64,000 nucleotides of DNA from positions 1 through 64,000 of IMG/VR virus record IMGVR_UViG_3300032753_001573, one strand, 5' to 3'. A model generated the notes under the pieces. It worked only from the letters and a program-made list of their open reading frames with translations, was not told where the DNA came from and ran no database searches. The position numbers and the translations under genes are program-made. The first letter of the stretch is position 1. The number at the start of each line of letters is the position of its first letter. Below are positions 28,888-49,906 of the stretch, piece by piece. The stretch comes from a virus.

Positions 28888-30198
28888 ATGTCTAATACAT
28901 TCTGCCCAATTCCTTGGATATTTCATGCCGCTAGATCAAATGGAGATATGCGAGTATGCTGTCAAGCTAATATAACAGCTAACAAAGGTATCATACGTAA
29001 ACTAGATGGTACTGCATATAATGTTGGTATCGATACAGTAGATTCTTCTAGAAATGCTAAACTTATGAGAGCAATGCGCGTTAATATGTTGAACGGCGTA
29101 TGGAGTGATGAGTGCGGCAGATGTAAACAAGAAGAAAATAATGGCTTAATAAGTCGCCGTAGTTATGAGAATCAAACGTGGAATTATACTATAGAAGATG
29201 CTAAGAAAGATACTGCATTAGATGGTAGTATTGATATATTAACTGTTCCAATTACCTATTACGATCTCAGATTTGGTAATTTCTGTAACTTTAAATGCAG
29301 AATGTGCGGACCAGCTGATAGTGATTCTTGGTATGATGATCACATAAAGCTTACTGGTAAAGATACATTTGAAGATACATCTGGAGACGTTCAGATAATA
29401 GAAGTTGATGGCAAATTTGAGGCAAACGGTTTCGACTGGTACAAGAATGAAAAATTCTGGGAACATTTAGAATCAAATGTACACAGTATTAGACAGGTTT
29501 ATCTTGCCGGTGGTGAACCTATGCTGATACAGCGCCACTATAAATTTTTAGAATTATGTGTGAGCAAAGACGTAGCCAAAGACATAGTTATAGAATATAA
29601 CACCAATATGAGTACATTACCTTCTAGGGTTATTGAATTATGGAAAAATTTCAAACAGGTCAAGATAGGTGCAAGCGTTGATGGATTTGGTCCTATACAG
29701 GAATATCAAAGACACGGTGCAAAGTGGGATAAGACATTACGCAACTTGCAGATAGTTGATGATCTTCCGGTTAATATATCTGCGTGGTTGACATATACTG
29801 TAACAGCATACAACATATGGCATATGCCTGATTTTATGAAATGGAAATTAGAATTGAGCAGTTTTAAGAAGATCAATAGCTCAATTCATAGACCAATAGT
29901 AACACATCATGTAGCACATAATCCAAAAAATTTAAACATAAGAGTTTTACCTGATAGGTTTAAATTGGATATAGTTGAGAAATTTAATTCATTTGTGTCT
30001 TGGGTTAGAGATTCTAATTATGACTCGCATATTATAGAACAGGCTAAAACCATATCAAATGGCATATGCTCTTATATGAATAGTGAAAGCTATTATCAAT
30101 CACACTGGGATGATTTTTTAGATTATACATCAAAGTTAGATGCTATAAGATCAGAATCACTTGTAGCAGTTGAACCTAAATTTAAAGAGTATCTTTAA
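28888..30198 (+). CDS. Radical SAM enzyme 1 (twitch-type)
   Basis: 436 aa. The FeS/SAM motif CNFKCRMC has its cysteines at residues 133, 137 and 140, followed by YLAGGEPMLI (the GGE SAM-binding motif). An N-terminal Cys region (FCPIPW near 6, VCC near 24, CGRC near 76) resembles the auxiliary segment of twitch-domain radical SAM proteins. It would use SAM to generate a radical on an unknown substrate. There is no clear ribosome site, but TATAAT lies 10 bases before the ATG. It opens the island, followed tail to tail by a PLP-type gene. Confidence 0.88.
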   Translation: MSNTFCPIPWIFHAARSNGDMRVCCQANITANKGIIRKLDGTAYNVGIDTVDSSRNAKLMRAMRVNMLNGVWSDECGRCKQEENNGLISRRSYENQTWNYTIEDAKKDTALDGSIDILTVPITYYDLRFGNFCNFKCRMCGPADSDSWYDDHIKLTGKDTFEDTSGDVQIIEVDGKFEANGFDWYKNEKFWEHLESNVHSIRQVYLAGGEPMLIQRHYKFLELCVSKDVAKDIVIEYNTNMSTLPSRVIELWKNFKQVKIGASVDGFGPIQEYQRHGAKWDKTLRNLQIVDDLPVNISAWLTYTVTAYNIWHMPDFMKWKLELSSFKKINSSIHRPIVTHHVAHNPKNLNIRVLPDRFKLDIVEKFNSFVSWVRDSNYDSHIIEQAKTISNGICSYMNSESYYQSHWDDFLDYTSKLDAIRSESLVAVEPKFKEYL

Positions 30199-31049
30199 GA
30201 CCCGCTTAGATACCTCAACAAAGGCCTAATACCTACTGGTTGCCCGCCCTGTGTACGAGCTAGATGTATAGCTTTAGTTGGTAGGAGATCAAAGTCTCTA
30301 CAAATCTTATCATAATGTTCACCATACTGTTTCCAAAAATATTCTGGACCAAAGTGCTTCATAAATTTGATTCCCATGCTAACCAATGCTTGGGAATTCA
30401 TAGCAAAATCGTTCATGATCGTTACGGCGCCGTTGGGAACTTCTCTGGCAAATCGTAAACCTATTCGGTTACCTCCCATTCCACCTTTACTTAGACTAAT
30501 ACAAAATGTAGAAACAGCAGGATGGTCAAAATTGAATTCAATACCATTTGAACAACTCAACCAAGCTCCGTCAATGTGAACTGGTATTTTTAATTCATAA
30601 CATCTGTCTAGTATATTATCCATCAATGGGTGTATATCACCACAAAATGGGAACGGCATAGATATTAACAGTTCTTTGTTTGGCCACAGGTTGTTAAGAG
30701 TTGTATATTTGATGTTTGGATTCAACCTCCAATGATACTTGTAATCGTTTTCGAACGTCATAATACCATCGCGTCCGCAACGTTGATATAAATCATCTAT
30801 AAACTGTGTACATCCGTGTGTTATATCTAACCGAGGAAATGCACGATATCCGCTGAGCGTGTTCAATGTATGCTGATCTAACCATTCTAAAAATGTTTGT
30901 TTAAATTGATCCTCTAAGTCTTTGGTATGTATTGGATTTTCTTTGTAAAATGAATCATAAAACCTATTAATAGTATTGTCGTACATTGGTTGAGGTCGAT
31001 CTTGTTGCAACCATTCTTTGGTATATTGTCTATTTGGATTATCTCGCAT
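30195..31049 (-). CDS. PLP-dependent aminotransferase-fold enzyme
   Basis: 284 aa from ATG 31049 (a TTG at 31082 is possible). PVHIDGAWLSCSNG contains the Asp (residue 160) expected to contact the pyridine nitrogen, and CISLSKGGMGGNRIG the Lys (188) that should form the Schiff base with PLP; HGCTQFIDDL near 79-86 is like the phosphate-binding region of fold-type I. It is shorter than most aminotransferases (about 400 aa), lacking much of the small domain. It is the only minus-strand gene among the first six of the island; its stop overlaps that of radical SAM 1 by 4 bases. Substrate unknown. Confidence 0.7.
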   Translation of the reverse strand: MRDNPNRQYTKEWLQQDRPQPMYDNTINRFYDSFYKENPIHTKDLEDQFKQTFLEWLDQHTLNTLSGYRAFPRLDITHGCTQFIDDLYQRCGRDGIMTFENDYKYHWRLNPNIKYTTLNNLWPNKELLISMPFPFCGDIHPLMDNILDRCYELKIPVHIDGAWLSCSNGIEFNFDHPAVSTFCISLSKGGMGGNRIGLRFAREVPNGAVTIMNDFAMNSQALVSMGIKFMKHFGPEYFWKQYGEHYDKICRDFDLLPTKAIHLARTQGGQPVGIRPLLRYLSGS

Positions 31050-31098
31050 GATGCATTTTAATATGTTAAATTGAAATTTCAAACATTAAACTTATATT

Positions 31099-32283
31099 AT
31101 GGAACCTTGTATATTACCTTGGATCAATTTTGGTACAAATACATTTGGCAGGCCTAGAACTTGCGGATACAGCGAGATGAAATCATCTCGCAAATTAAAA
31201 GACGGAACTCTTTTGGATCATTGGAATGACGAGTATTTCAAAGAAGTACGTAGAGAGTTTATTAAAGGTCAATGGCCTAAAAATTGCAGACGTTGCGAAT
31301 ATGTTGAAAGTTTAAACGGTACCAGTAAGAGAATGGGAGAGAATACTTGGTACTTAAATGATAATAAACATCTTATAGCTCAAACAGCAATTGACGGATC
31401 AGTTCCTTATCCACCTTCTCACTTAGATATAAGAGTTGGTACTATATGCAATCTGAAATGCATACACTGTGGTACTGGTGCTAGCAGCAAATGGCATGAA
31501 GATAAAACCATGTTAGGGAAATATCCAAATACAGAAGATTACAAGATAGATAACAAATGGATAGAGCAAGATAGCACCATATGGGATAACATAAAGGATA
31601 GTATTGGGTTTGTCAAAAGACTTAATTTCTTAGGTGGAGAACCGTTTGCTAATAAACAGCATAATAAATTCATAAAAGATATATGTTCAACAGAACATGC
31701 GCAAAATATAACATTATCTTATGTAACAAATGGTCTATTGATTGATCAAGAAATATTAGACTGTCTGTCTAAATTTAAAACTGTTATTATTAGAGTAAGT
31801 GTTGATGCACCAAGTAAAGCTGGAGAATATTTTAGATTTCCATTGAAATGGAATAAGTTTATGGATCAATTGAATTTGTTAGACACTCATGCAAGTAAGA
31901 ACAATAATATTGATCTTGGACTTCAATGGACATGTAGTAACATAAGTATGTTCTATCTAACTAACACTTATACTCTTATGAAAAATTCTTTCCCTGATAT
32001 CAAGTTTATATTTTGCAATCACGTTGAATGGCCATTGCATATGAGTGCTCAAGTATTACCCAACGATGTTAAAAACGCTATTGCGTTAGAGATAGACAAA
32101 TACAACTGGGGAATAGATCGCGATGTAGTAATGTTTTACCTTAATCATATGTTTGAAAGAAATCTGTGGGAAGAATACGGTCATACTTTTCTCAATTATC
32201 TAGATGATTTAGACACATCTAGGAAGATCGATTGGAAGTATAGCCTTTCTGAAATGAATCTCAGTGCATATGATACAAGATAA
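31099..32283 (+). CDS. Radical SAM enzyme 2 (twitch-type)
   Basis: 394 aa. CNLKCIHC has cysteines at residues 117, 121 and 124; RLNFLGGEPFANKQH gives the GGE motif. The N-terminal CILPW and CRRCEYVE segments match the plan of radical SAM enzyme 1, so the two are paralogues and may act on similar or sequential substrates. The gene starts 50 bases after the divergently read PLP gene and is followed after 18 bases by the ATP pyrophosphatase, probably in one operon. Confidence 0.88.
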   Translation: MEPCILPWINFGTNTFGRPRTCGYSEMKSSRKLKDGTLLDHWNDEYFKEVRREFIKGQWPKNCRRCEYVESLNGTSKRMGENTWYLNDNKHLIAQTAIDGSVPYPPSHLDIRVGTICNLKCIHCGTGASSKWHEDKTMLGKYPNTEDYKIDNKWIEQDSTIWDNIKDSIGFVKRLNFLGGEPFANKQHNKFIKDICSTEHAQNITLSYVTNGLLIDQEILDCLSKFKTVIIRVSVDAPSKAGEYFRFPLKWNKFMDQLNLLDTHASKNNNIDLGLQWTCSNISMFYLTNTYTLMKNSFPDIKFIFCNHVEWPLHMSAQVLPNDVKNAIALEIDKYNWGIDRDVVMFYLNHMFERNLWEEYGHTFLNYLDDLDTSRKIDWKYSLSEMNLSAYDTR

Positions 32284-32301
32284 TATAGAAGGGACTGTAA
32301 T

Positions 32302-33060
32302 ATGGGCGAGCTTTTTAAAACTGACATAGATATACCAACTGATGCATTTGGTATAGGATTCAAATTATCAGGTGGTGCCGATAGTAGCATAGTATACTAT
32401 GCAGTATGCAAGGAATTGGCAAGAAGAGATCTAAAAATTCCTGTATACGTAACTACTCTAGACACTGATATAAAACTATGGTACAGTCACTACGCTAAGA
32501 AAGTTATTAATTTCACTGCAAACGAAACAGGTGTAAGTCCGGTTAATCATATTACTAATTATATATCAGGCCCATATGACGACGACAGGTATACGGATGG
32601 GCAAGACATTATGGTATATAATCTTGTTGATGATAGAAAGATAAATGTTTTGTATAGCGGACTTACACAAAATGCAAAAGTACAAGATCTATATGATGCA
32701 GCTATCGGACATCCTGATATCAAATTAAGTTCGGCGCCATTGATGGAATGGTGTATCAATGGTACTGATCCGACTAGGAATGATCATTCTAAACAAGGAT
32801 ATCGCGGTATTGACCGCAAGCATGCATCATTACCGTTTTGGGCAATATATCCGTTTTTGCATCATGATAAAAAATATGTAGCAGAACAGTATAAAGATTA
32901 TGACGTTATGGAAAAGTTGTTTCCATTAACATATAGTTGCGAGCATGAAAATTCTGAGATAAAGACCAAATTAGATATAGTTGATGGATTCCAAGAACAC
33001 GCACACTGCGGACAGTGTTGGTTTTGTATAGAACGAGTTTACGGTTTTGGAAAGCTGTAA
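32302..33060 (+). CDS. ATP pyrophosphatase, QueC-like
   Basis: 252 aa. IGFKLSGGADSSIVYYAV carries the PP-loop SGGxDS (residues 23-28) that binds ATP and adenylates a carboxylate or similar group. Near the C-terminus TYSCEHE and HCGQCWFCIERV (Cys 236, 239 and 242) resemble the zinc site of QueC, the PreQ0 synthase. The middle is diverged, so it may be a QueC-fold ligase with another substrate. Ribosome site GAAGGG. It sits between two radical SAM genes and an SDR. Confidence 0.78.
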   Translation: MGELFKTDIDIPTDAFGIGFKLSGGADSSIVYYAVCKELARRDLKIPVYVTTLDTDIKLWYSHYAKKVINFTANETGVSPVNHITNYISGPYDDDRYTDGQDIMVYNLVDDRKINVLYSGLTQNAKVQDLYDAAIGHPDIKLSSAPLMEWCINGTDPTRNDHSKQGYRGIDRKHASLPFWAIYPFLHHDKKYVAEQYKDYDVMEKLFPLTYSCEHENSEIKTKLDIVDGFQEHAHCGQCWFCIERVYGFGKL

Positions 33061-33061
33061 C

Positions 33062-33622
33062 ATGAAGATATGTATAACAGGCAACAACAATAGTGGCTTA
33101 GCAGGCGCATTAGCTACAATATATCCATCGGCTACATTTATTAGCAGACATACTGGATATGATCTAACAACTATTGCCGATCAAAATAGATGTGCAAGTA
33201 TAGCACTTGAACACGATGTGTTTGTTAATTGCGCTGCACTTTGGAAATTTAATCAGACTATTCTGTTAGATACAGTATATAAACTTTGTCTAGACAATAA
33301 ACATCCAATACATATTATATGTATAGGTAGTACCACTGATAGAGTTAAAAATGGCAAAGCATGGTTATACAATGCTGAGAAGAAAGCATTAAGGGATTAC
33401 TGTAATACATTAGCATTGGGAGGTGTTTGGGGTTCATCGCCTAAGATAAGCTATCTAAGCTTAGGTACGTTATCTAATAATCAGGAAAAACATCCGGATC
33501 GAAAATGTATTGATATGTCTTTAGCTGCTAACTATGTAAAATGGTTGATAGATCAGCCAAGAAATATAAACATAAATGAAATTAGTATAGATCCAATGCA
33601 GGATGGTAGATGGTATGAATGA
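33062..33622 (+). CDS. Short-chain dehydrogenase/reductase-like protein
   Basis: 186 aa from ATG 33062, 1 base after the stop of the previous gene. The N-terminal ICITGNNNSGLAGAL gives a Rossmann nucleotide loop, VNCAA replaces the NAAG motif, and Ser90, Tyr103 and Lys107 (CIGSTT...YNAEKK) form the SDR catalytic set. It is shorter than the usual 250 aa. It probably oxidises or reduces the product of the adjacent enzymes. Its stop codon overlaps the start of the broken radical SAM stub. Confidence 0.75.
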   Translation: MKICITGNNNSGLAGALATIYPSATFISRHTGYDLTTIADQNRCASIALEHDVFVNCAALWKFNQTILLDTVYKLCLDNKHPIHIICIGSTTDRVKNGKAWLYNAEKKALRDYCNTLALGGVWGSSPKISYLSLGTLSNNQEKHPDRKCIDMSLAANYVKWLIDQPRNININEISIDPMQDGRWYE

Positions 33623-33689
33623 TCAACTTAAATGGAGTCAATACGATTTCACTAAGATACCGTTTGATGATATTGTTAAATTTGGCTGA
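33615..33689 (+). pseudogene. Orphan 5' stub of radical SAM gene 3, cut off by a homing endonuclease insertion
   Basis: ATG 33615 to TGA 33689 encodes 24 residues, LKWSQYDFTKIPFDDIVKFG near its end, which match the first 24 residues of the intact radical SAM protein starting at 34504 (20 of 24 identical; 59 of 72 bases identical by hand count). The stub has the original coupling to the SDR gene (ATG overlaps the SDR stop). After codon 24 the homology stops at a TGA. The GIY-YIG gene follows 30 bases later. Confidence 0.88.
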
Positions 33690-33706
33690 TTTTGTAATAA
33701 TATTTG

Positions 33707-33714
33707 TATAAATA
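33707..33714 (+). promoter_or_regulatory. Late promoter, exact T4 octamer, abutting the endonuclease start
   Basis: TATAAATA ends 4 bases before ATG 33719. It was probably carried in with the mobile gene and could also supply late transcription to radical SAM gene 3. Confidence 0.6.
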
Positions 33715-33718
33715 AGGT

Positions 33719-34507
33719 ATGACATACTACATTGTTTACAAAACGACAAATTTAATTAATGGCAAACGATATATAGGTTATCATAAAACAGATAATTTAG
33801 ATGATGGATATTTAGGATCTGGATTGGTTTTATTAAATGCTATTAAAAAATACGGTAAAGAAAATTTTATTAGAGAAACACTAGGAATGTTTAGTGATAG
33901 TAAATCTGCATTAGATTACGAACGAATGTTAATTACAGAATATGTAATATATAGCGATGATTTTTACAATTTAATGCCAGGTGGTATTGGCGGAGATGCA
34001 AAAGGCGAATCATCTCGTAATTATGGTATAAAAAAATCTACAAGTCACAAAGAAAAATTGAGTTCTTTACGAAAAGGTAGATTTACTGGAGAAAATAATC
34101 CATTTTATGGAAAAAAACACACAGATGAATTAAAGAAATGGTTCAGTGAAAGACAGATAGGCGATAAAAGTCCTGTATATGACAATACATTGTATAAATT
34201 TATAAATCATAAAACGGGCGAATGTTTCGAAGGTACACAATATCAGTTTGTACACAAATTTAACCTTGATTCAGGTAATGTTAATAAATTGGTAAGAAAA
34301 GTTGTTACGTCTTATAATATGTGGACGTTAGATGGTAATAAACCTTTGAAAAAAGGTCCAAAGATTGATGAAACTATCTATACAATATATAAGGATGATG
34401 AGATATTTGCAGGAACACGACAAGAAATAGAACACATGTTAAAAACATGTATATCTAGATTTTTGTCAGGTAAAATCAAAACATGTAAAAAATGGAAACT
34501 TAAATGA
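33719..34507 (+). CDS. GIY-YIG homing endonuclease with NUMOD-type DNA-binding repeats
   Basis: 262 aa. The N-terminal YYIVYKTTNLINGKRYIGYH is the GIY-YIG nuclease signature, with the distal catalytic Glu likely in ALDYERMLI. Residues about 105-145 (HKEKLSSLRKGRFTGENNPF, then YGKKHTDE) are NUMOD3-type modules, followed by two YKF/GTQYQF and GTRQEIEHML repeats like NUMOD1-type helix-turn-helix segments. It is highly AT-rich. It sits between a 24-codon stub and the full radical SAM gene, whose ATG overlaps the endonuclease stop (ATGA), which keeps translational coupling. Confidence 0.93.
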   Translation: MTYYIVYKTTNLINGKRYIGYHKTDNLDDGYLGSGLVLLNAIKKYGKENFIRETLGMFSDSKSALDYERMLITEYVIYSDDFYNLMPGGIGGDAKGESSRNYGIKKSTSHKEKLSSLRKGRFTGENNPFYGKKHTDELKKWFSERQIGDKSPVYDNTLYKFINHKTGECFEGTQYQFVHKFNLDSGNVNKLVRKVVTSYNMWTLDGNKPLKKGPKIDETIYTIYKDDEIFAGTRQEIEHMLKTCISRFLSGKIKTCKKWKLK

Positions 34508-35643
34508 ATAGTAATCTTAAATGGTCTGAATATGATTTTACTAAAATACCGTTTAATGACATTGTTAAATTTGGACAAAGAAGTTTATTATATAAGGATA
34601 TTTTTTGTGTAAGTTGGATCGTCGGAAGGTATTGCAACTACAATTGCAGTTATTGTTGGCCTTATGCTAGGAGTAATACTAAAGATTATAGACCGTTTGA
34701 ACTCAATCGTATGACTATGGATGAGATTAAGCGACAGAGCAGAGAACGAGGATATAACAGTTTCCATTTCAGCTTTAGCGGCGGAGAACCAACGGTATAT
34801 CCTGATTATCTTAAACTGCTAGCACACTATTCTAACGATACTGAAAATTGCAACTACCAAAGTGTGCATATGACTAGTAACATATCACAAGGAATTCGAT
34901 GGTTTGAAAAATATGTTGATACGACAAAAGATCTTCACAGAGTATCTGTTACTGCTAGTTGGCATCGCGAACAGGGTATCAAGCAAGGTGATTTAAAAGG
35001 ACATACAGAAAAATTTGCAGACAAGTTGGTATTTCTGCAAGAGAACGATGTGCAAGTAACTATAAACACAGTAATGGTACCTGAGTGGTTTGATACTCTT
35101 TATGCAGAAGCAGAATACTTTCTCAGCAGAGGCATTAATGTTACTCTCAAACCTCAAAGCGATCCCACAGCTAGCAGAGTAGTTGAGGGATATACTGCGC
35201 AGCAACTGGCTACATTACACAACGGCATGCCGCAACGAGATTTCACTGCAGTAAAGAGCAAAGTTGTTCGTCCAAAACCTCCGGTTAGCATGCATGCTAT
35301 GAGCATTAACAATGGTGATGATGCAGCAGTGCCGCAGATTATGCAGGTAGAGTTTGAAGACGATACTGGTAAGAAATGGTACATGGATCAGGCCGAGAGA
35401 TTCAATGCGTTTGATTTCAATAATTTCAAAGGTTGGGACTGCGAAAGCGGGTATCGCAGTATTATTATCAGAGAACCAGATGGTGCTATCAAACGTAGCT
35501 ATAGCTGTCAAGATAAACCTCTTGGTTACATTGAGACTGGATTCAAATTGTTTGATAAACCGATGACATGCATAAGCGATGCATGCGTTAGTAGTGCTGA
35601 TAGTAAGATACCAAAACAGCGATCTATTTCAAGAATTTTCTAG
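34504..35643 (+). CDS. Radical SAM enzyme 3
   Basis: 379 aa. RYCNYNCSYCWPYAR has the FeS cysteines at residues 44, 48 and 51, and HFSFSGGEPTVYPDYLKL the GGE motif. C-terminal Cys (WDCESGYR, YSCQDKPLG, TCISDACVSS) may bind an auxiliary cluster. The first 24 codons are a diverged duplicate of the stub upstream and probably arrived with the endonuclease. The gene ends in a 15-bp tail-to-tail overlap with the sulfotransferase-like gene. Confidence 0.88.
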   Translation: MNSNLKWSEYDFTKIPFNDIVKFGQRSLLYKDIFCVSWIVGRYCNYNCSYCWPYARSNTKDYRPFELNRMTMDEIKRQSRERGYNSFHFSFSGGEPTVYPDYLKLLAHYSNDTENCNYQSVHMTSNISQGIRWFEKYVDTTKDLHRVSVTASWHREQGIKQGDLKGHTEKFADKLVFLQENDVQVTINTVMVPEWFDTLYAEAEYFLSRGINVTLKPQSDPTASRVVEGYTAQQLATLHNGMPQRDFTAVKSKVVRPKPPVSMHAMSINNGDDAAVPQIMQVEFEDDTGKKWYMDQAERFNAFDFNNFKGWDCESGYRSIIIREPDGAIKRSYSCQDKPLGYIETGFKLFDKPMTCISDACVSSADSKIPKQRSISRIF

Positions 35644-36375
35644 GAGTTGTTCAACTTCTTGCCAATTGCGAATTATTTGTTTCTTTTCATCAAGAGTTAA
35701 CATTTTTCTAGTTAGTAGCTCATTTTGCTCTAGTTCATCTACATTAAGCGCAGTGTACGATGTATCATCTAGTCCATAGGTCTTTAACACACTGGGAATC
35801 AAGTTTACACAATCAGCAACCATTGATTCGTAGTTGATAATGCCGATGCAATCGCATTCATTTATCAATCTGTATCTATATTCGTTGTAAACATTTGTGT
35901 AACCTATTTCGGTTTTCAATTCGTCTAACGATACATCAAATGGACGTAACTCTTGTTTAAGTTTGTCTACAACATCCTGTTTGGTGGTAACCCAAACATT
36001 AGTATGTCGTGCTATATACCAACTGAGATATCGTTCTAATTGGTTGCGCTTTACTTCTATCCATTTTGCACTATGGTCAGACATCCATCGATCTAAATAT
36101 GGTATTGCAGAGGGATGAAAGGAATGTTTAATCAACCTATGTCGATGAGAAAAACTATCGTACATCTGTAAACGTTGGTCAAATTTGTTGCGGTCTGTGG
36201 TAACGATACCAGTAACCTCAAACCCAACATCGTGTTGCACTAAATTTATTGCATTGTTAGATGGTTCCCACATATCGGTGAACTCTAATCCTGCTTGTCT
36301 CAGCAATCTAGTAAAGTAATAGAATGAAAAACTTGTGCCTGTTCTAGGTAATCCTACTAAATGTAGATCGGTCAT
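35629..36375 (-). CDS. Sulfotransferase-like P-loop protein
   Basis: 248 aa. The N-terminus LHLVGLPRTGTSFSFYYFTRLL matches the 5'-phosphosulfate-binding loop of sulfotransferases (PRxGTS/T). SAKWIEVKRNQLERYLSWYIA fits the 3'-phosphate region (RNxxxRxxS-like), and the C-terminal DEKKQIIRNWQEV is typical. It would move sulfate from PAPS to an acceptor. It could instead be a related NTPase. Its start overlaps the end of the fragment upstream. Confidence 0.65.
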   Translation of the reverse strand: MTDLHLVGLPRTGTSFSFYYFTRLLRQAGLEFTDMWEPSNNAINLVQHDVGFEVTGIVTTDRNKFDQRLQMYDSFSHRHRLIKHSFHPSAIPYLDRWMSDHSAKWIEVKRNQLERYLSWYIARHTNVWVTTKQDVVDKLKQELRPFDVSLDELKTEIGYTNVYNEYRYRLINECDCIGIINYESMVADCVNLIPSVLKTYGLDDTSYTALNVDELEQNELLTRKMLTLDEKKQIIRNWQEVEQLLENS

Positions 36376-36683
36376 GGCTGTTCTATAATGTTAGCAAATG
36401 GTATGAAATCATCAATAGGTTCGGCATATTGGACTTGAAACACATACCTATCGTGCTCGTTGTTGTACATGGCGTGCACCTTTGTGGTATTCAGTATTAC
36501 AGGCTGCACCGTATAATGGTAAGTTTCACTCACTGATGAGTTATCATCTAAGCTGTCATAATACGTGACTGGTGCAAATTTATTCAATGAAGGTAACAGT
36601 GCAATACTGAGACAACTGGTACGATTTGACGAATCGTCTATGTGACGAGCAATGTGTGTACCTGCTCTAAACAGCGTGAAGAT
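36372..36683 (-). pseudogene. Fragment of a 2OG/Fe(II) oxygenase-like protein after an in-frame TAG
   Basis: The frame reads from directly after a TAG (36684-36686) to a stop at 36372-36374. It encodes LFRAGTHIARHIDDSSNR, with an HxD pair, and later TKVHAMYNNEHDRYVFQVQY, with a distal His and Arg, the usual set of metal and cosubstrate ligands of jelly-roll oxygenases. The N-terminal strands expected in such a domain are absent and there is no good start codon (only TTG 36587, inside the domain). It may be a decayed gene or be joined to the upstream 63-aa frame by TAG readthrough. Confidence 0.6.
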
Positions 36684-36875
36684 CTAGCCAGTTGATTTGA
36701 ATGGTATGTAACTGGTCATTTCAGATGCATCGATATCACCTGCATCTGCCCATTCTAAACCGACGCGAGTACCCTTCAAGCTAACATAGGCATTGTAATT
36801 ACCTACCAATGCCTTTGATACTAGTATTTCTCTAAAGGTAGATGATATGGTTTTTTTGAATTCTAGAACATTCAT
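36684..36875 (-). CDS. 63-aa protein, in frame with the oxygenase fragment across TAG
   Basis: ATG 36875 with AAAGGATG upstream, TAG at 36684-36686. The product has LEFKKTISSTFREILVSK, then NAYVSLKGTRVGLEWADAG and an acidic end. No family recognised. It continues in the same frame into the oxygenase-like segment, so it could be the N-terminal part of a gene interrupted by an amber codon, or an independent small gene. Confidence 0.55.
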   Translation of the reverse strand: MNVLEFKKTISSTFREILVSKALVGNYNAYVSLKGTRVGLEWADAGDIDASEMTSYIPFKSTG

Positions 36876-37010
36876 GTTTTTTCATCCTTTATATAGGATT
36901 TATGCAATGTAGCCGCCTATATTTGAAAGATACCGCCGCATGGCATTTCCTGCAATATTTTGCCTAACAAACATCTGATAAATTATAGTATAGTCGAGGG
37001 GAAACCATAC

Positions 37011-37577
37011 ATGAGATACGTAGAAAAGTTAGATCTAACCTTTGATATAAACGATCTGCTTCGTGGTTTAGAAACCGTGCTTGCTATATGTGACTGGCAT
37101 CCTCATCACAATCAAATTGGTCTTACACAGTCAATTGGCTCGGATGCAATCGAATCATGGTACAATGCAGCCGGAAGCTTGATTTATAAATGGAGCAACG
37201 ATCCGTTTGACAAAGACGGTGTATTAAAGAAGATTGATATAGTTAGAGCCGAATCTGATTTTTGTTATTTTGTGCGCGAGTTTTCGGATACTGTTTTTAA
37301 AGATGTTTTTGATAAGTTATCTGCGAGGTATAAGCTTGGTAGAGTTAGATTGATGAAGAGCCGACCTAAGACCTGCTTAAGCTGGCACACTGACAGTGAA
37401 AAAAGATTACATATTCCAATAATTACCAATCTCGGTGCAAGACTGGTGATAGAAGATACTGCTAATCATCTCATTGCCGACGGTAGCGTTTACATAGCAG
37501 ATACTACCAAATATCACACTGCATTTAATTCTGGCATGGAAGACAGGATACATCTAGTAGCCTGTTTATTAGATTAA
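37011..37577 (+). CDS. 2OG/Fe(II) oxygenase-like protein A
   Basis: 188 aa from ATG 37011, chosen because GAGGGG lies 9 bases upstream (TTG 36960 is possible). Ligand pattern: CLSWHTDSEKRLHIPII has the HxD, and KYHTAFNSGMEDRIHLV has the distal His and Arg. ARLVIEDTANHLIADGSVYI is the connecting sheet, as in aspartyl-hydroxylase-like jelly-roll enzymes. It is the only plus-strand member of the oxygenase series and overlaps the convergent radical SAM gene by 9 bp. Substrate unknown; amino acid or lipid hydroxylation are options. Confidence 0.7.
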   Translation: MRYVEKLDLTFDINDLLRGLETVLAICDWHPHHNQIGLTQSIGSDAIESWYNAAGSLIYKWSNDPFDKDGVLKKIDIVRAESDFCYFVREFSDTVFKDVFDKLSARYKLGRVRLMKSRPKTCLSWHTDSEKRLHIPIITNLGARLVIEDTANHLIADGSVYIADTTKYHTAFNSGMEDRIHLVACLLD

Positions 37578-38624
37578 TCTTTTTGGTTTACTGCACCATT
37601 TGATGCATGCCTTGTTAGCAGTAGTGCATTTTTGTATGGATGTTTCTAATCCATCTTTGAACCATGGGGTAGATAAGATGGTTCCTAGCGGATGTTTGAA
37701 TACATTTATATCGCCCGACGATCTAAGATTTTGTATGCGTCTTACATTTTCGTCTAGGTCTGGATTGCCGTGATCGGCTTCAGTTTGAATCCAACAGCAC
37801 GGCCAAACATTGCCCTTGTAATCCATCTGTAGTCTTGCCTGATCGGCTGCTGCGCAGGATATTTGATGCGTGTCGTCTGAATAGATCAGATCTTCAAGTT
37901 TGAAATTTCGAATCTTTCGAGTTTCTGGTAGATATGATCTCAGCTGCAAATCGGTCTGGTGTAATTCGTGTTTGATACCTTTGCGATCTGTGTACCTGTA
38001 CACATCATTGCGTTCTTGAAAGAATCTCGCAGATTCTATAACATCCCAATGATCGGCACCGTGAGCTTTTGTGAGCTCCTTGATCTCATCTAAATACGGT
38101 TGATTATGTTCAAAAACAACAGTTAGTACTCCAACGGTATTAGCACATGCGTCTGATAGAGCTTTCATGTTAGCAAGTATCTTCTTGAGACTGGTGTTCC
38201 TCCGATACCTAGCATGCATTTCTTGGTTAATACCGTCTACGTCAAATTGAGTGTGCGTGTTTTTCCCGCCTATCAATCCAAGCTGTCTCCACCATTCTGT
38301 GGTCCGTGTAGATCCGTTGGTTGTTATCTTTATGATTGTTGACGGAGAACTTTCTCTGACATATCTAACTATTTCTAACAGATCTTTGCAGGTCGTTGGT
38401 TCACCATATAATCCTGAGAATATTATCTGATTCATGTGCTGCAAGTCTTCGGGTGAGAATGCTTGCTTGAAATCATTCAGCGACCACTTCTTGCGCTCTA
38501 GAAAATCGTAGGTATCTAATGTGCCTGGCTTAAATCTGTCGCATTGTGGGCAAGCAGCATTGCACACAGAGCTAAGCTCTACTAAGACTTTCAGTTTGTT
38601 AGAATTGTATAAGTCTAACCACAT
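37569..38624 (-). CDS. Radical SAM enzyme 4 (SPASM-type)
   Basis: 351 aa. SSVCNAACPQCDRF holds cysteines 21, 25 and 28; FSGLYGEPT replaces the GGE motif. The C-terminal part has DYKGNVWPCCW and CTTANKACIKWCSK, the cysteine arrangement of a SPASM domain that binds extra FeS clusters, common in peptide-modifying enzymes. It differs from the other three radical SAM proteins in plan. Start overlaps the preceding gene's stop, so it belongs to the long minus-strand oxygenase operon. Confidence 0.88.
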   Translation of the reverse strand: MWLDLYNSNKLKVLVELSSVCNAACPQCDRFKPGTLDTYDFLERKKWSLNDFKQAFSPEDLQHMNQIIFSGLYGEPTTCKDLLEIVRYVRESSPSTIIKITTNGSTRTTEWWRQLGLIGGKNTHTQFDVDGINQEMHARYRRNTSLKKILANMKALSDACANTVGVLTVVFEHNQPYLDEIKELTKAHGADHWDVIESARFFQERNDVYRYTDRKGIKHELHQTDLQLRSYLPETRKIRNFKLEDLIYSDDTHQISCAAADQARLQMDYKGNVWPCCWIQTEADHGNPDLDENVRRIQNLRSSGDINVFKHPLGTILSTPWFKDGLETSIQKCTTANKACIKWCSKPKRLI

Positions 38625-39622
38625 TATAACACTATGGTTCCTTTGAGTATATCAACATCTCTGGCCATTTGAGCCAATAGATTAGCCCTATGAGATAAAC
38701 CCTCCGGTATGATGCCCTTGTGTAATAAGCTATTGTTTACAAAATAGTATTTGCCCGGCGTAAGAACGTATCTACCTTTTTCAAAATCCATTACCACTGG
38801 GTCGATGGGAACCATGAGTCTGAATCCGTGCATTACTGGTGTTGCATGATCCTTGTGCCAGATTGTTTCCCACCCGTTCCGGCTAATCACATAGTTGTGC
38901 CTGAATACTTTAGATTCAAGCTGTCCATATACAAACTTTGCATATTCTGGGACGCTTGGGTCAATATCTGCAGTTCCTTGTATGTTAAGCGGATGGCTGG
39001 CATATTTCTCAGTAGTAAACCCTACATGCTTTAGATAGTTGATGACTTCTGCTGCGGGTACCAAAAATTTCTGAAACCTGTCAGACACATAGTGAGGTCG
39101 CTCGCTGCCTACCCAATCGTCTAGTTCTTTCCTTAAACGTTCTGGATCTATTGGATCTATAGCTAGCTCTACTACGCAACCATACATTTCTGGAGTTTCG
39201 CCGTAATGATGTTCTACTGGTAGTGTTTCGTAGGTATCCATGGGTAGTATGTTGTGTGTCATTGCTATCTGATCAATTTCTTGATAGCGTTTGGCTATGT
39301 CGTACATATACATGCCATTTGATAATTCAATTAGATGCTGTTTGTAAACAACATCGTCATTGGATAGTGGCATGCTCATAACAACTTTGCTGATCTTTAG
39401 ATCAATAGCTTTGCCTATCATCCGATACAGTGCACCAAATTCTGCATAGAAATCATTGTTTGTGAAATCATGCACGATGTAATCTGCGATATACGTGTCG
39501 CCGTTGGCTTTGCCAGCAACTAAATGTTTGCCTGTGGTATCTACAACAACCGCATCAGATGACGACAGATCAATATCAATTGATATCGTTGGATCGGTTG
39601 GCAGTGTTAGCATGGTTTTCAT
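38624..39622 (-). CDS. 2OG/Fe(II) oxygenase-like protein B
   Basis: 332 aa from ATG 39622, which overlaps the DUF2061 stop as ATGA; the in-frame ATG at 39655 would give a 37-bp overlap. The C-terminal domain has TIWHKDHATPVMHGFRL (HxD) and SLLHKGIIPEGLSHRANLLA (distal His, Arg). The N-terminal 140 residues (SIDIDLSSSDAVVVDTTGKH and following) are a separate alpha/beta part not recognised. Possibly a hydroxylase; substrate unknown. Confidence 0.65.
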   Translation of the reverse strand: MKTMLTLPTDPTISIDIDLSSSDAVVVDTTGKHLVAGKANGDTYIADYIVHDFTNNDFYAEFGALYRMIGKAIDLKISKVVMSMPLSNDDVVYKQHLIELSNGMYMYDIAKRYQEIDQIAMTHNILPMDTYETLPVEHHYGETPEMYGCVVELAIDPIDPERLRKELDDWVGSERPHYVSDRFQKFLVPAAEVINYLKHVGFTTEKYASHPLNIQGTADIDPSVPEYAKFVYGQLESKVFRHNYVISRNGWETIWHKDHATPVMHGFRLMVPIDPVVMDFEKGRYVLTPGKYYFVNNSLLHKGIIPEGLSHRANLLAQMARDVDILKGTIVL

Positions 39623-39828
39623 TGTTTTGTGATTCCCCATTTGATTCTTAACCATATGCGTTCGTGTATGTAATAATCAAGGCTTAGAAACACATGCAGC
39701 AGTGTTGCAAATCCGGTAGCACTGCCGATGTCCCCTGTGAAAAGGTAAGTCAACGGCAGCGTTAATAACCACGCAGTTAGCCTGTAACTTATCATTCTCG
39801 TTATAGTGCGAGTATGTGTTTCTTTCAT
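39619..39828 (-). CDS. DUF2061 family membrane protein
   Basis: 69 aa with two hydrophobic segments (ISYRLTAWLLTLPLTYLFTG and ATGFATLLHVFLSLDYYI) followed by HERIWLRIKWG, the typical C-terminal pattern of DUF2061 proteins. Inner-membrane location is likely. ATGA overlaps join it to genes on both sides. Function of the family is unknown. Confidence 0.82.
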   Translation of the reverse strand: MKETHTRTITRMISYRLTAWLLTLPLTYLFTGDIGSATGFATLLHVFLSLDYYIHERIWLRIKWGITKQ

Positions 39829-40445
39829 AGGATTAACTGCGATGGTTCGAATTTGGTAGCAGAAAATGGATAATAGAAGAAATCTTGCGGTACATCATTG
39901 AATTGATGTTGTCCCATATGCTGTAAATCGTCCCAGTGTTTAAGCTTTGATCTAACATGGCTTATTCTTCGAGTAGTATGATTTAATACCATTGCCTTGA
40001 GTTTAGACGAGTGAGCATATATTGTAAAGAATAAACCTTTGCATCTCGTAGCTTTGGCAAACATGATATGTCGGTCAAAGAATCCTTGGTCGACGTATAC
40101 TATTCCGTTATATTTGCTGCGATATGCTTTGAGTATGTAATAGAACATATTTACTCTGAGAAACTTATTTCCTGCAGTGTCGTCGTACACCTTTGCCCCG
40201 CCCATGCTTACTACTTTACCATCCTCGAGCGCAACTTCTATGGCATCAAATCCTACATCAAACCATTTACGGTTTGAATACTTGTATGCATCCTCACTGT
40301 AATTGGTTATCCACCAATTGTGATTTTCTGTAACTGACAGTAATTCTGTGTCAATGCTTAGATCATCTCTGTAGATAGATTTTCTAAATTCAGCAAGGCG
40401 CTGGTCTGTTGGATCGTATATGGTGGTTAGCTCAAAATCTTGCAT
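39825..40445 (-). CDS. Unknown protein, possible acyltransferase-like fold
   Basis: 206 aa. EDGKVVSMGGAKVYD followed by FLRVNMFYYILKAYRSK resembles the central strand and pyrophosphate-helix region of GNAT acyltransferases, but the classical RxxGxG/A loop is not seen, so the call is weak. The C-terminal half is basic and aromatic (LKHWDDLQHMGQHQF, FYYPFSATKFEP). Start and stop overlap both neighbours, so it is translated with the oxygenase genes. Confidence 0.45.
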   Translation of the reverse strand: MQDFELTTIYDPTDQRLAEFRKSIYRDDLSIDTELLSVTENHNWWITNYSEDAYKYSNRKWFDVGFDAIEVALEDGKVVSMGGAKVYDDTAGNKFLRVNMFYYILKAYRSKYNGIVYVDQGFFDRHIMFAKATRCKGLFFTIYAHSSKLKAMVLNHTTRRISHVRSKLKHWDDLQHMGQHQFNDVPQDFFYYPFSATKFEPSQLIL

Positions 40446-41068
40446 TATGATAATGATGCTACCATATCATCAAATCTCAGCATCGAATCCCAGGATACCG
40501 ACACTCGACGATAATTGTCTGGATGGCCAATTTCAGCTTCCCAGGCATTGTGCAGTGATGAAACTCTAAATATTATTGGACGATTGCCGCTAATTATTTC
40601 TGCTGGTGTGGTATCTAACGGACAGCTGTAACGTTTCTTATCTACCGGGTCGCCTAGAGCAACTCCTAGCTTTAGAGGTTTGATCTCTATTATCTGGTCG
40701 GGTGTTGGTTCAAAGAATGCGGTACCGGCATAGTCGCTATAATAGATCGGGAAGAACAGATTGCTGTCTACGCTTTCGTGATCGTGTGGCAGATTTAGGT
40801 ATGTGTGCCTGCCCTTGTATTCGAGAAATGTCATGCGCTTGTCTAGATTATATTTCGCTCTGAATTCTTCCATCTCTGGAAACAACGCACTGACCTCGTC
40901 AAACGTGCTGTCTCTTAAGAACAGTGCTTCTTTGACAGGCCTATATTTTGGTATCAATTTGATATGATCATAAACATTGCGCAGATAGTCTGACATCATT
41001 ACGATGTCTGGCACATGCTCTGTTGAATAGAAATATTTGCCGCTCTTGCCAGTTTTGTCCATGATCAT
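40445..41068 (-). CDS. 2OG/Fe(II) oxygenase-like or cupin-like protein C
   Basis: 207 aa. YLNLPHDHESVDSNLFFPIY supplies candidate metal ligands (HxH), IIFRVSSLHNAWEAEIGH the distal His, and YRRVSVSWDSM the Arg expected for 2-oxoglutarate. A second start lies at 41062. It probably shares the jelly-roll fold of its neighbours, but the HDH rather than HxD pattern leaves doubt. Confidence 0.55.
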   Translation of the reverse strand: MIMDKTGKSGKYFYSTEHVPDIVMMSDYLRNVYDHIKLIPKYRPVKEALFLRDSTFDEVSALFPEMEEFRAKYNLDKRMTFLEYKGRHTYLNLPHDHESVDSNLFFPIYYSDYAGTAFFEPTPDQIIEIKPLKLGVALGDPVDKKRYSCPLDTTPAEIISGNRPIIFRVSSLHNAWEAEIGHPDNYRRVSVSWDSMLRFDDMVASLS

Positions 41069-41078
41069 TATATTCCTG

Positions 41079-41672
41079 TCAATCTACGTCTATGTAACCC
41101 ATATTATGTAAGATAACACAGGATTCTTCCCAGCTGGCCTCAGACATCTCCCACTTGATGATGGTACGAGTCTCACCTTTGGGCATGTTATTGAACCCCT
41201 TATGTATGATATCACTGCGGAACAAGCAAGGCATACCAGTGCTGGTGAGCATGGCTTCGGTATGGATCGGCTCTAGATCCTCGACGTTTTCTACTAGATA
41301 GCTGTCCTTGTAGAGATCATTCTTGAATCTAACTTCTGTCTTGCAAGTATACCAGGTGCTAGGACTGTGTGCTTCGCAGTTGAGGATGGGCCAGTTGATG
41401 CTGGCTGCTCCACCGCTACCAGGTGTACCTTGTATATGCGGGGGAAATTCTCTGGCAAGGCGGTTGGTATTGAGGACAAAGAAGTGTTCACGCAATGACG
41501 GTATCTGCTTGCGCAGTTCTACGGCAAAATCATAATGCGATACTTGGCATCTATAGTTAAGACCAAACTTGTAGGTATCGTCTCTGCGTCTTGCTTCTTT
41601 TTGTATATCATCCCACTGCTGGAAGCTTAGCAACGGCTTCTTAAAGTTTATGATGTATTTGTTTTCGAACAT
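41079..41672 (-). CDS. 2OG oxygenase-like or cupin-like protein D
   Basis: 197 aa. The C-terminal MPCLFRSDIIHKGFNN and GETRTIIKWEMS look like the distal His and Arg strands of jelly-roll oxygenases. The proximal site is less clear (FPPHIQGTPGSGG, giving HxQ). It may be a diverged or inactive paralogue that binds a ligand. Separated from the next upstream gene by 55 bases and from the downstream gene by 10. Confidence 0.5.
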   Translation of the reverse strand: MFENKYIINFKKPLLSFQQWDDIQKEARRRDDTYKFGLNYRCQVSHYDFAVELRKQIPSLREHFFVLNTNRLAREFPPHIQGTPGSGGAASINWPILNCEAHSPSTWYTCKTEVRFKNDLYKDSYLVENVEDLEPIHTEAMLTSTGMPCLFRSDIIHKGFNNMPKGETRTIIKWEMSEASWEESCVILHNMGYIDVD

Positions 41673-41727
41673 TGCGATAGAACTTTCTGCTATGAATGTT
41701 ATATGATAACGGTTCGTCCAAAAACTA

Positions 41728-42450
41728 TCAATAAAGATGTTCTATGGGCGCTTGGCTATCTATGCTTATGATGAGATGATTTCGTGGAGTGCTGCCACCG
41801 TTTATCGCATAGTGTTTGACACCCGGATTTACAAACCACACTGACCCATCGGCGGGAATGTGATGCTTGACTTCATTACCATCCTTGTCCCAGCCACCGT
41901 TGAAGCATTCTTCGTTGGTATCAAAGGCGATATGAAGCCTAACTCCGTAAAGAGTGTCATAATCGATGTGTGGTTTGACTTCCGAATGAGGAGCAAGGTT
42001 AGCAAATCTAGCACGATGAGATCCAGGAAATGCTGCTAAAACCTCTCTTAGATATGGCGGAACATCTTGTTTAACTTTGCGAAACCAACGTTCGTCTGCT
42101 TCCGTTTTGCCTTTGGCTATCCTGTTGTCCCAGGCACTGCCCGATTTTTCAGTTCTTTTATCTAGGCTGAACGAGTTGTCGTACTCTGTTAGACTTAGCT
42201 GTTGATAACTGGTATGTTCCCAGTCGAGCTCGCAAACATGATTGATACCAGCAAGCTCCTCATCCTTGAAGAACATTGCAGGCAACTTGGTATGAGCTTC
42301 GCACATATCGGCATAATCGGAACCTAATCCGTCCCAGACTTTCCCTCTTTCAAACTGTGATAATTCTTCTCTAAGTCTATCGATGTTAAATCTGATATTA
42401 AGTGGAGCAATGACGGGTAACTCGTATCGTCTTTTCCATGTTGTAGACAT
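41728..42450 (-). CDS. Aspartyl/asparaginyl beta-hydroxylase-like oxygenase
   Basis: 240 aa, strong ribosome site TGGAGG. VKPHIDYDTLYGVRLHIAF holds the HxD; DGSVWFVNPGVKHYAINGG and PRNHLIISID hold the distal His and Arg. This is the clearest member of the local series and matches the Asp/Asn beta-hydroxylase pattern. In phages such proteins may hydroxylate peptides or modify sugars or lipids; here the target is unknown. Confidence 0.78.
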   Translation of the reverse strand: MSTTWKRRYELPVIAPLNIRFNIDRLREELSQFERGKVWDGLGSDYADMCEAHTKLPAMFFKDEELAGINHVCELDWEHTSYQQLSLTEYDNSFSLDKRTEKSGSAWDNRIAKGKTEADERWFRKVKQDVPPYLREVLAAFPGSHRARFANLAPHSEVKPHIDYDTLYGVRLHIAFDTNEECFNGGWDKDGNEVKHHIPADGSVWFVNPGVKHYAINGGSTPRNHLIISIDSQAPIEHLY

Positions 42451-42543
42451 TTTAACCTCCAGTAAACTTCTTGTACACTATTTAAAGATCTGCTCCATAG
42501 ATGAGGTTTCAAATAAGATTTTTCCATAAGCTCAAATATGATA

Positions 42544-43293
42544 TTACTTGCTTAATATTCTAATAAAAAAATAAGAAATGTCAAATTGCCACCAGCGATC
42601 TCCACCAAAATTTGGACTTAGAGGTTTGTGATGGTGATTGTCGTGCCATCCTTCTCCCCACACCAAATATGCTAATGGTGCATTATTGCGGGCATCATAC
42701 TCGTGGCCATTGTCATTATTGCCATACATATGTGCAAATGTAACTATACTAGATCCTGCATTCCATAAAACGGCAGCCGGTACTAACCATGCATATATAA
42801 CTGCCATTGGATCTATCATATATAGAATTGCAGCATATACAAAGTTAATTAAGAAATAGTATTTATGCTGCCATTTCATAAATGGATCTCGTAGAAGATC
42901 TCCAACGTAACGTATGTTAACTTTTGAAAACATACTCAAATAGTGGGCATAAAACCAACCCTTATGCTTAGGACTATGTGGGTCTCTATCAGAATCTACG
43001 TATCTGTGATGTTCTCGATGAATAGCAACCCAAGGTATAGCTGCTCCCGTTAATCCTATGGTAGCACAAAGCGTACCTATGTATCTAAACCATTTTGGTG
43101 CTGGCCATGAATCATGACTAAGAAGTTTATGATATGTCATAGTCATTCCAATACATCCATTTAGGAAATATACAAATAATACTATGCACCATTGCCACCA
43201 ATGACCTACAACTATCAATACTAACACGCTGATATGTGCAATGATTTGTAGTGCTAATAGCAACCATTTGTCTGGTATATACTTAGAAAACAT
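42544..43293 (-). CDS. Acyl-lipid/acyl-CoA fatty acid desaturase
   Basis: 249 aa integral membrane protein. Three His boxes bind the di-iron centre: HKLLSH (55-60), HREHH (92-96) and HDNHH (217-221). Hydrophobic segments at about 10-32 and 35-52, then 70-90 and 150-185, match the usual four-helix layout. It would introduce a double bond (delta-9 type by resemblance) into membrane acyl chains. It is the first gene of the minus-strand part of the island and lies next to the tail tube promoter. Confidence 0.9.
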   Translation of the reverse strand: MFSKYIPDKWLLLALQIIAHISVLVLIVVGHWWQWCIVLFVYFLNGCIGMTMTYHKLLSHDSWPAPKWFRYIGTLCATIGLTGAAIPWVAIHREHHRYVDSDRDPHSPKHKGWFYAHYLSMFSKVNIRYVGDLLRDPFMKWQHKYYFLINFVYAAILYMIDPMAVIYAWLVPAAVLWNAGSSIVTFAHMYGNNDNGHEYDARNNAPLAYLVWGEGWHDNHHHKPLSPNFGGDRWWQFDISYFFIRILSK

Positions 43294-43409: not shown

Positions 43410-44090
43410 ATGGCAACAAATTTACCAACCAATGGTTCAAGCAGCGCTGGTACACTAAGTAAATTTGGTGTTCCAATAACGTCTGGCGCTTCTCAAGGTT
43501 CTGGCATATTGATGCCAAAGTTGAAGTATCGTTATGCTGTTTACCTACAGAATTTTGGAGATGGGCAGGGTGTTACGCAACAGAACATAACACAACAGGT
43601 TGTGAGCTGCGGACGTCCTCAAGTCCAGTATAACAGGACTGAACTACACAGCTATAATAACGTGATGTTTATCCCACAGAAACCAGTATGGCAGACGCTT
43701 GAATTGGTTGTGCGCGATGATATTACTAGCGTTTCAACTCAGTCAGTTGGTGAGCAACTACAGAAGCAGATGAATTATTTCAATATGACTACTGGTATGG
43801 CTGGTATCAATTACAAGTTTACCATGCAGATACTCATGCTAGATGGTAATTATGGTGCAACTGATTCAACTAATGCAGCATTAGAAACATGGCATATAGA
43901 GGGTTGCTATCTAGAAACTGTAGCTTATGATAATAATGATTATAGTTCAAGCGACCCTGTACAGATAACACTAACTATAAGCTTTGATAACGCTACACAG
44001 GTTATTAATCCACCTTCTCAGAGCAGTACTGGTACTGACGATCCAGGTAATCTTGCTGGTGTGCTTGCTGGTGGTGATGGTTCTTATTAA
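43410..44090 (+). CDS. 19: Tail tube protein (T4 gp19-like)
   Basis: 226 aa. LKYRYAVYLQNFG, CGRPQVQYNRTELHSYNNVM, KPVWQTLELVVRDD and WHIEGCYLETVAYDNNDYSS with DPVQITLTISFDNA are the conserved beta strands and insertion of T4-like tube proteins. T4 gp19 is 163 aa; the extra residues are flexible termini. Late promoter upstream and terminator downstream. In T4 it directly follows gene 18; here 14.6 kb separate the two. Confidence 0.9.
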   Translation: MATNLPTNGSSSAGTLSKFGVPITSGASQGSGILMPKLKYRYAVYLQNFGDGQGVTQQNITQQVVSCGRPQVQYNRTELHSYNNVMFIPQKPVWQTLELVVRDDITSVSTQSVGEQLQKQMNYFNMTTGMAGINYKFTMQILMLDGNYGATDSTNAALETWHIEGCYLETVAYDNNDYSSSDPVQITLTISFDNATQVINPPSQSSTGTDDPGNLAGVLAGGDGSY

Positions 44091-48938: not shown

Positions 48939-49860
<922 letters not shown>

Positions 49861-49906
49861 ATTCAAAATAAATAGGTATTGATAAATTTAATAGAGAGTA
49901 TGTTGT

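Follow-up and report, generated by a model that had tools for sequence, protein, structure and literature searches.

Radical SAM (rSAM) genes are known to form blocks in phage genomes. Campylobacter phages CP220 and CPt10 have 11–12 rSAM genes per phage, five of them in a block-swapped module (Timms et al. 2010, PMC2853527). In pelagimyophages, rSAM cassettes lie in a hypervariable island, the host recognition cluster, and the lipopolysaccharide (LPS)-type genes of such islands are proposed to act at the host envelope (PMC7029224). The locus considered here is a metabolic island at positions 28888–43293 of a 64,000-nucleotide stretch, the window, comprising positions 1 to 64,000 of the IMG/VR record IMGVR_UViG_3300032753_001573. 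The record (155.7 kb) comes from an uncultured virus and is possibly a fragment. The island consists of 19 intact open reading frames (ORFs), g1 to g19, in a gap of 14.6 kb between two tail genes:

24725–28789, plus strand: gene for the tail sheath (1354 aa), bounding the island on the left (PF17482, E 9e-12; PF04984 weak)
43410–44090, plus strand: gene for the tail tube, bounding the island on the right (phrog_4542, E 6e-46)

The island is very probably composite cargo, inserted between sheath and tube at a spot that is used repeatedly, and its rSAM core likely acts as one pathway. That the product is a glycan or envelope component is a tentative suggestion, derived from gene neighbours in other genomes. 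Taken as one statement, composite cargo with an rSAM-core pathway leading to a glycan or glycolipid has slightly less than an even chance.

The tube protein has its best matches in the jumbo phages PA5oct, Atu_ph07 and Phosso (40–47% identity), while TerL and UvsX are 55% and 62% identical to those of PA5oct. Judging by the related tube, sheath, TerL and UvsX proteins and the same local gene order, the phage is PA5oct-like and belongs to a jumbo lineage. The T4-like affiliation assumed in an earlier note on this DNA did not hold, as the structural proteins are nearer to the PA5oct/Atu_ph07 jumbo phages than to T4. In PA5oct the sheath–tube gap holds a Hef endonuclease, and in Atu_ph07 and Phosso a Ro-like RNA-binding gene plus small ORFs, whereas in CBB there is nothing between the two genes. 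Thus the same structural pair is separated by foreign genes in three relatives, by 1–6 non-structural genes there and by a 19-gene biosynthetic block here. The differing contents of the gap indicate that the site receives cargo repeatedly, so that a contractile-tail gene pair serves as a repeated landing site. Non-structural genes inside a structural module, varying among relatives, are the hallmark of the marine hypervariable metabolic islands, and this is the arrangement observed. In a further relative, G001 (232 kb; TerL 54%, UvsX 67%), the sheath and tube genes are adjacent and an rSAM array lies about 100 kb away. The sheath protein in the window is itself of unusual length, with a large repeat-like region ahead of its conserved C-terminal part.

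The plus strand carries g1, g3, g4, g5, g6, g7 and g11; the minus strand g2, g8–g10 and g12–g19. Since the genes occupy both strands, a single operon is ruled out. Many adjacent genes abut or overlap, by 1–37 bases, and the coordinates agree with the overlaps and coupling noted earlier. The G+C content at third codon positions is highest in the g13–g18 segment (0.37–0.53, versus 0.18–0.33 for g1–g7). The catalytic motifs of the island enzymes are intact, as are the ORFs; several clear pseudogenes, had they been found, were to count against a pathway. The late promoter motif TATAAATA occurs 4 times in the window versus 8 expected, hence no late-expression signal is seen for the island. Promoter and terminator scans produced chance-level results only, and the tRNA and Rfam scans found none. 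The earlier count of about 18 non-structural genes between sheath and tube is close to the 19 ORFs flanked by the PF17482 and phrog_4542 matches; that inventory was incomplete in that the GIY-YIG homing endonuclease gene at 33719–34507 had been missed.

Module A comprises g1–g7, on the plus strand apart from g2, and includes the core genes g1, g5 and g7:

28888–30198, plus strand: g1, twitch-domain rSAM enzyme, core gene (NF033640, E 5e-109)
30195–31049, minus strand: g2, PLP fold-type-I-like enzyme (PLP, pyridoxal phosphate; NF006967, E 3e-6; a TTG-start ORF extends to 31082)
31099–32283, plus strand: g3, second twitch-domain rSAM enzyme (NF033640, E 9e-85)
32302–33060, plus strand: g4, QueC/QatC-like N-type ATP pyrophosphatase (PF06508, E 1e-3; phrog_1550, E 1e-6)
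33062–33622, plus strand: g5, small oxidoreductase resembling short-chain dehydrogenases/reductases (SDR), core gene (YNAEKK; TTG-start ORF from 33047)
33615–33689, plus strand: remnant of the g7 5' end, 24 codons followed by TGA, upstream of g6
33719–34507, plus strand: g6, GIY-YIG homing endonuclease (phrog_314, E 2e-43; NUMOD3 and GIY-YIG)
34504–35643, plus strand: g7, rSAM enzyme with a C-terminal Cys motif, core gene, intact

Most enzyme assignments proposed earlier for this module stand. All four rSAM proteins of the island (g1, g3, g7, g12) exceed the Pfam cut-off and contain CX3CX2C. The PLP-fold assignment of g2 is upheld by weak family matches, the lysine motif SLSKGG and similarity to a PLP protein from a Bdellovibrionota array (37% identity, 275 aa aligned). 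The QueC-like assignment of g4 is borne out by the P-loop SGGADS and a C-terminal Cys motif, and the SDR assignment of g5 by YxxxK with weak SDR matches in PDB. PDB profile searches with g1 yielded no match.

The genes g1, g5 and g7 form the core of large rSAM arrays in uncultured phages. Most of the 25 related records searched, the larger ones, carry 7–20 rSAM genes. Among 17 non-redundant g1 loci with full flanks, g7 is present in 12, g5 in 12, and at least one of them in 16. Clustering of 1238 ORFs yields a recurrent set of g1, Twi2 (a second twitch-domain rSAM gene), g7 and g5, together with QueC-like, methyltransferase-like and glycosyltransferase-like genes. Homologues of g1 occur in 61 viral loci at 33–73% identity, mostly 46–66%. 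The mean column identity of g5 across phages is 70%, with YNAEKK invariant, and that of g7 is 78% across 17 phage sequences; there is no tblastn match to g7 in 50,697 deposited phage genomes. The arrays also encode a conserved 74-aa protein, c6 (L014:2546–2776 and 28 other loci; mean column identity 73%), which has neither a family match nor a conserved cysteine. The virus record has a fifth rSAM gene (123520–124489), split into two overlapping ORFs of 209 and 119 aa and perhaps frameshifted, between peptidyl-prolyl-isomerase-like and DnaK-like genes.

The same core is found on bacterial chromosomes. A g7 profile search produced matches in 17 of 291 Bdellovibrionota genomes (contigs up to 1.6 Mb), against 0 of 397 Pseudomonadota, plus one phage-like contig of a metagenome-assembled genome (MAG). 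Strict g1 matches (E at most 1e-140) occur in nine genomes, all g7-positive (Fisher p 7e-13), and g5 in ten, nine of them g7-positive (Fisher p 7e-12); these p values are optimistic, as the genomes share ancestry. The identity of g1 is 46–49% in five Bdellovibrionota genomes, the others being more distant. A scan of 84,980 species genomes for g5 relied on exact peptide patterns and overlooked more diverged copies that were picked up afterwards. It recovered three loci, two from Bdellovibrionales MAGs and the third from a viral-looking contig of a gammaproteobacterial MAG. The latter (MED685, contig C3) carries a long rSAM array with a g7 of the phage clade (L134–L136) and is probably viral DNA placed in a bacterial bin. 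On a Bdellovibrionales MAG contig, a lone g5 homologue (L127:9959–10558, 63%) lies near heme genes, flanked by polysaccharide-deacetylase-like and methyltransferase-like genes; a phage-to-bacterium transfer is possible.

Like the phage loci, the Bdellovibrionota arrays cluster homologues of g1, g2, g5 and g7 with more rSAM and QueC-like genes. They differ in being chromosomal and in having a glycosyltransferase-like gene c5, a second twitch rSAM gene and methyltransferase-like genes, which the window island lacks. The neighbours of bacterial g7 are Twi2 (mostly 56–64%), another rSAM gene (45–49%), c5, a methyltransferase-like gene, g1, g5 and PLP genes. In addition to the similarity cited above, g2 is 31% identical to a Bdellovibrionota PLP protein whose gene directly adjoins a g1-type rSAM gene, and 51% identical to a protein of the viral record G002. 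In another phage locus (L042), a 715-aa protein fuses a PLP domain, 47% identical to a bacterial one, to an rSAM domain. The window genes g1 and g2 converge, with an overlap of 4 bases. This adjacency, the fusion and the g1–g2 convergence each point independently to joint action of the PLP enzyme and the twitch rSAM enzyme.

The histories of the core genes differ. In the g1 tree, the window gene falls inside the phage clade beside L011 (99/98), and in the g5 tree it groups with phages (100/99). In the g7 tree, it falls outside the clade of other phages (100/100), among the Bdellovibrionota. The maximum-likelihood tree favours an independent Bdellovibrionota origin of the window g7, but phage monophyly is not rejected (approximately unbiased test, p 0.245).

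The g6 endonuclease gene interrupts this core. The remnant upstream of it is 83% identical to residues 1–24 of g7, and the full-length g7 follows directly, its ATG overlapping the endonuclease stop codon. In L014, g5 and g7 overlap by 8 bases, exactly as g5 and the remnant do in the window; hence the insertion of g6 broke up a coupled pair. As read from these coordinates and alignments, g6 is a mobile insert at codon 24 of g7 that has kept its target gene intact. Its similarity to the PA5oct endonuclease of the same gap is weak and confined to a short local stretch (33 aa, 39% identity). Treating g7 as a pseudogene owing to the 24-codon remnant was considered and rejected, since g7 is full length with its invariant residues.

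Module B (g8–g19) lies mostly on the minus strand:

35629–36375, minus strand: g8, sulfotransferase-like by P-loop motif only (LVGLPRTGTSF)
36372–36587, minus strand: g9, small ORF, no family match
36684–36875, minus strand: g10, small ORF, no family match
36960–37577, plus strand: g11, Asp/Asn beta-hydroxylase-like oxygenase (PF05118, E 5e-8)
37569–38624, minus strand: g12, rSAM enzyme (PF04055, E 8e-11)
38624–39655, minus strand: g13, C-terminal half like a 2-oxoglutarate oxygenase by motif (HxD...H...R); 100% identical in L199
39619–39828, minus strand: g14, DUF2061 membrane protein (PF09834, E 9e-8); 100% in L199
39825–40445, minus strand: g15, acyltransferase-like label unconfirmed, no family match; 99% in L199
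40445–41068, minus strand: g16, possible oxygenase, no family match; 97% in L199
41079–41672, minus strand: g17, possible oxygenase, no family match; 95% in L199
41728–42450, minus strand: g18, Asp/Asn beta-hydroxylase-like oxygenase (PF05118, E 1e-8); 89% in L199
42544–43293, minus strand: g19, membrane acyl-CoA desaturase-like protein with three His boxes (PDB 4zyo, E 2e-12)

Here the earlier annotation held in part. DUF2061 (PF09834, E 9e-8) and the desaturase (acyl-CoA desaturase, E 2e-12) were recovered. About five oxygenases had been proposed, of which g11 and g18 have Asp_Arg_Hydrox Pfam matches and g13 a plausible motif, g16 and g17 being left without a family match. No family match was found for the possible acyltransferase, g15, and the sulfotransferase-like label of g8 found no family support beyond the P-loop. 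The g12 protein has relatives in 31 viral loci (27–43% identity), and g19 is 51% identical to a protein of one Bdellovibrionota genome. An AlphaFold model of g13 made without an alignment was uninformative (pLDDT 33.5).

The sister phage locus L199 has the tube gene, the desaturase gene (45%), g18, g17, g16, g15, g14 and g13 in the same order. Window positions 38968–42471 are 92.8% identical to it, while the flanks are only 64–68% identical, hence the g13–g18 cassette was recently exchanged between diverged phages. Protein identity within the cassette climbs from 89% (g18) to 100% (g13, g14). A single ORF of L034 matches g15 and g13, in that order, which suggests that the two proteins work together. 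L061, from the same metagenome as L199, has a sheath gene (66%) followed by g1 (73%); we infer that L061 and L199 may be the two ends of one island in a single sister phage. One more rSAM gene of L199 (L199:2234–3250, minus strand) lies near the tube genes and beside a TnsA-like gene, and represents a second insertion close to the tail cluster.

The subsets g1+g5+g7, g2 with a g1-type rSAM gene, and g13–g18 each recur in relatives; a single 18-gene pathway is not supported. These co-occurrences answer the refutation test put forward earlier, namely that genes scattered singly across relatives would argue against a pathway.

As for the product, 85 mostly non-rSAM neighbours in the bacterial loci were scanned with Pfam. 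Seven match QueC, four glycosyltransferase family 2, three Asp_Arg_Hydrox, two carbamoyltransferase and one a SIS domain, with other families besides. The presence of glycosyltransferase, carbamoyltransferase, QueC-like and Asp-hydroxylase genes makes a tailored glycan or glycolipid the likeliest product. The twitch rSAM and PLP enzymes would assemble or rearrange a unit derived from a sugar or an amino acid, with the QueC-like protein activating a carboxylate or making an amide- or nitrile-like group and the SDR carrying out a reduction. Module B would tailor the product further, with oxygenases, the desaturase and the putative sulfo- and acyltransferases decorating it. The glycan or glycolipid would probably be displayed on the infected cell surface, acting in superinfection exclusion or a change of the host surface. 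The likely site of action would be the host envelope, as proposed for the pelagimyophage LPS-type genes (PMC7029224). A stronger version, in which the phages infect the largely predatory Bdellovibrionota, share with them a new multi-rSAM system making a novel class of tailored (glyco)metabolites and remodel the host surface with its product, seems improbable.

Several observations weigh against the glycan pathway. The glycan suggestion comes from neighbours in other genomes, not from the window: Pfam and PHROG scans recognised no glycosyltransferase or sugar-nucleotide enzyme in the island, the genes that define a surface-polysaccharide cluster, and they are seen only in the homologous bacterial loci. 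Even there, recognised families account for few of the 85 neighbour genes. The array protein c5, with a model of pLDDT 86, has mostly GT-A glycosyltransferases or nucleotidyltransferases as its best PDB matches, but these are weak (TM about 0.3, best E 8e-4), and its PDB profile search gave no match. In the viral contig scan, g3 had no close relative. No close relatives of g4 are seen either, and no deposited phage genome matches it. Several module B genes fall into no known family, and g8 has neither Pfam, PHROG or PDB matches nor relatives in the viral scan. Finally, the Bdellovibrionota may be gene donors or recipients and not hosts; a TerL search of Bdellovibrionota bins, aimed at host prediction, gave an uninformative single match of 38% among 291.

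The best surviving alternative, itself unlikely, is that a peptide or virion proteins (tube, sheath, fibres) serve as substrates for the rSAM enzymes and oxygenases, acting in the manner of maturases of ribosomally synthesized and post-translationally modified peptides (RiPPs), which would give meaning to the tail location. Asp/Asn hydroxylases, which g11 and g18 resemble, act on proteins or amino acids, a point in its favour. The family matches of g3, g7 and g12 are peptide-modifying rSAM/SPASM enzymes, but at the superfamily level and far under the cut-offs. Arrays in relatives lie near tail-fibre-like genes and encode c6; this small protein, however, has no conserved cysteine and is absent from the window. 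Moreover, the G001 array is more than 100 kb from the sheath and tube genes, and the bacterial loci have no tail genes nearby and are rich in sugar-type genes. No maturase model reaches its cut-off in the island, and g9 and g10 have no Cys-rich core, although a cryptic RiPP precursor may be present.

Somewhat less likely still are unlinked morons, individually useful or neutral genes at a permissive site with no common product. The recurrent insertion spot, mosaic composition, exchange and homing endonuclease are all expected of such cargo; the gene pairs and trios conserved across phages and bacteria, and the gene fusions, are not.

We give little credence to one 18-gene pathway yielding one compound. 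The tight packing and overlaps speak for it, and rSAM, Asp_Arg_Hydrox, desaturase and PLP genes recur together in phage Mosig and in Bdellovibrionota. However, the genes lie on opposite strands with steps in G+C, a homing endonuclease sits among them, and in other phages g1/g5/g7 occur without most of the module B genes. Since the segments differ in strand, G+C and history (g1 versus g7, and g13–g18 with an exchange of its own), the small biosynthetic cluster envisaged earlier is supported for the three subsets and not as a single pathway.

Nucleoside chemistry, making a deazaguanine-like or hypermodified DNA or tRNA base, is equally doubtful, for beyond the weakly matching QueC-like g4 and a QueD-family match at 115106 of the record, GTP cyclohydrolase I (FolE) was not found in the record fragment, no rSAM protein is assigned to QueE, the resemblance of g4 to QueC lies mainly in the loop and C-terminal motifs, and QueC-like genes are multiplied in the arrays, unlike in the queuosine pathway. 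The QueD-family (PTPS) gene stands alone at 115058–115525.

Another unusual feature of the window is the TerL region (48942–52010). An intein-like N piece closes the first ORF (Terminase_6N), next comes a free-standing DUF7487 ORF (49907–50920), and the third ORF begins with an intein C piece ending SSN-C and continues into the TerL nuclease half. The arrangement resembles an intein split in an atypical way, its two pieces separated by another ORF; split inteins of a similar kind are known in TerL.

Radical SAM enzymes are costly, oxygen-sensitive catalysts, and still as many as 20 are encoded in the arrays of uncultured phages. The g1/g5/g7 core, common to phages and Bdellovibrionota chromosomes, is a small defined gene set with which the product may be sought. 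The sampled Pseudomonadota lack this core, and no deposited phage has g7. The core also offers a host lead, open to testing, for phages of a lineage that has no isolates.

The closest described systems are the two mentioned at the outset. As in CP220 and CPt10, there are several rSAM genes (four) and one swappable block, and an rSAM protein of CP220 matches g12 at 24% identity. However, those phages belong to another lineage and have a glycine amidinotransferase as partner, while g7 and g4 match no deposited phage. Block exchange is demonstrated here for g13–g18 alone, and the array occupies a different locus in G001. With the pelagimyophages, including Mosig EXVC030M, the locus shares a variable metabolic island in a structural region with rSAM, aminotransferase, Asp_Arg_Hydrox and desaturase genes, but the proteins are only 24–30% identical. 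VrlC and gp14 flank the pelagimyophage island, and sheath and tube are neighbours there, whereas this island separates sheath and tube and contains no recognised fibre gene such as mark the host recognition cluster. The earlier statement that no described phage pathway has this set is true of the exact set; multi-rSAM exchangeable modules (PMC2853527) and rSAM cassettes in hypervariable islands (PMC7029224) are published, so the kind is already known. A search for phage rSAM/glycan clusters found nothing in the literature covered, most subscription papers being outside it. Relative to that literature, three features appear to be new: the core shared with Bdellovibrionota, the location between sheath and tube of a PA5oct-like phage, and the insertion of a homing endonuclease into a core rSAM gene.

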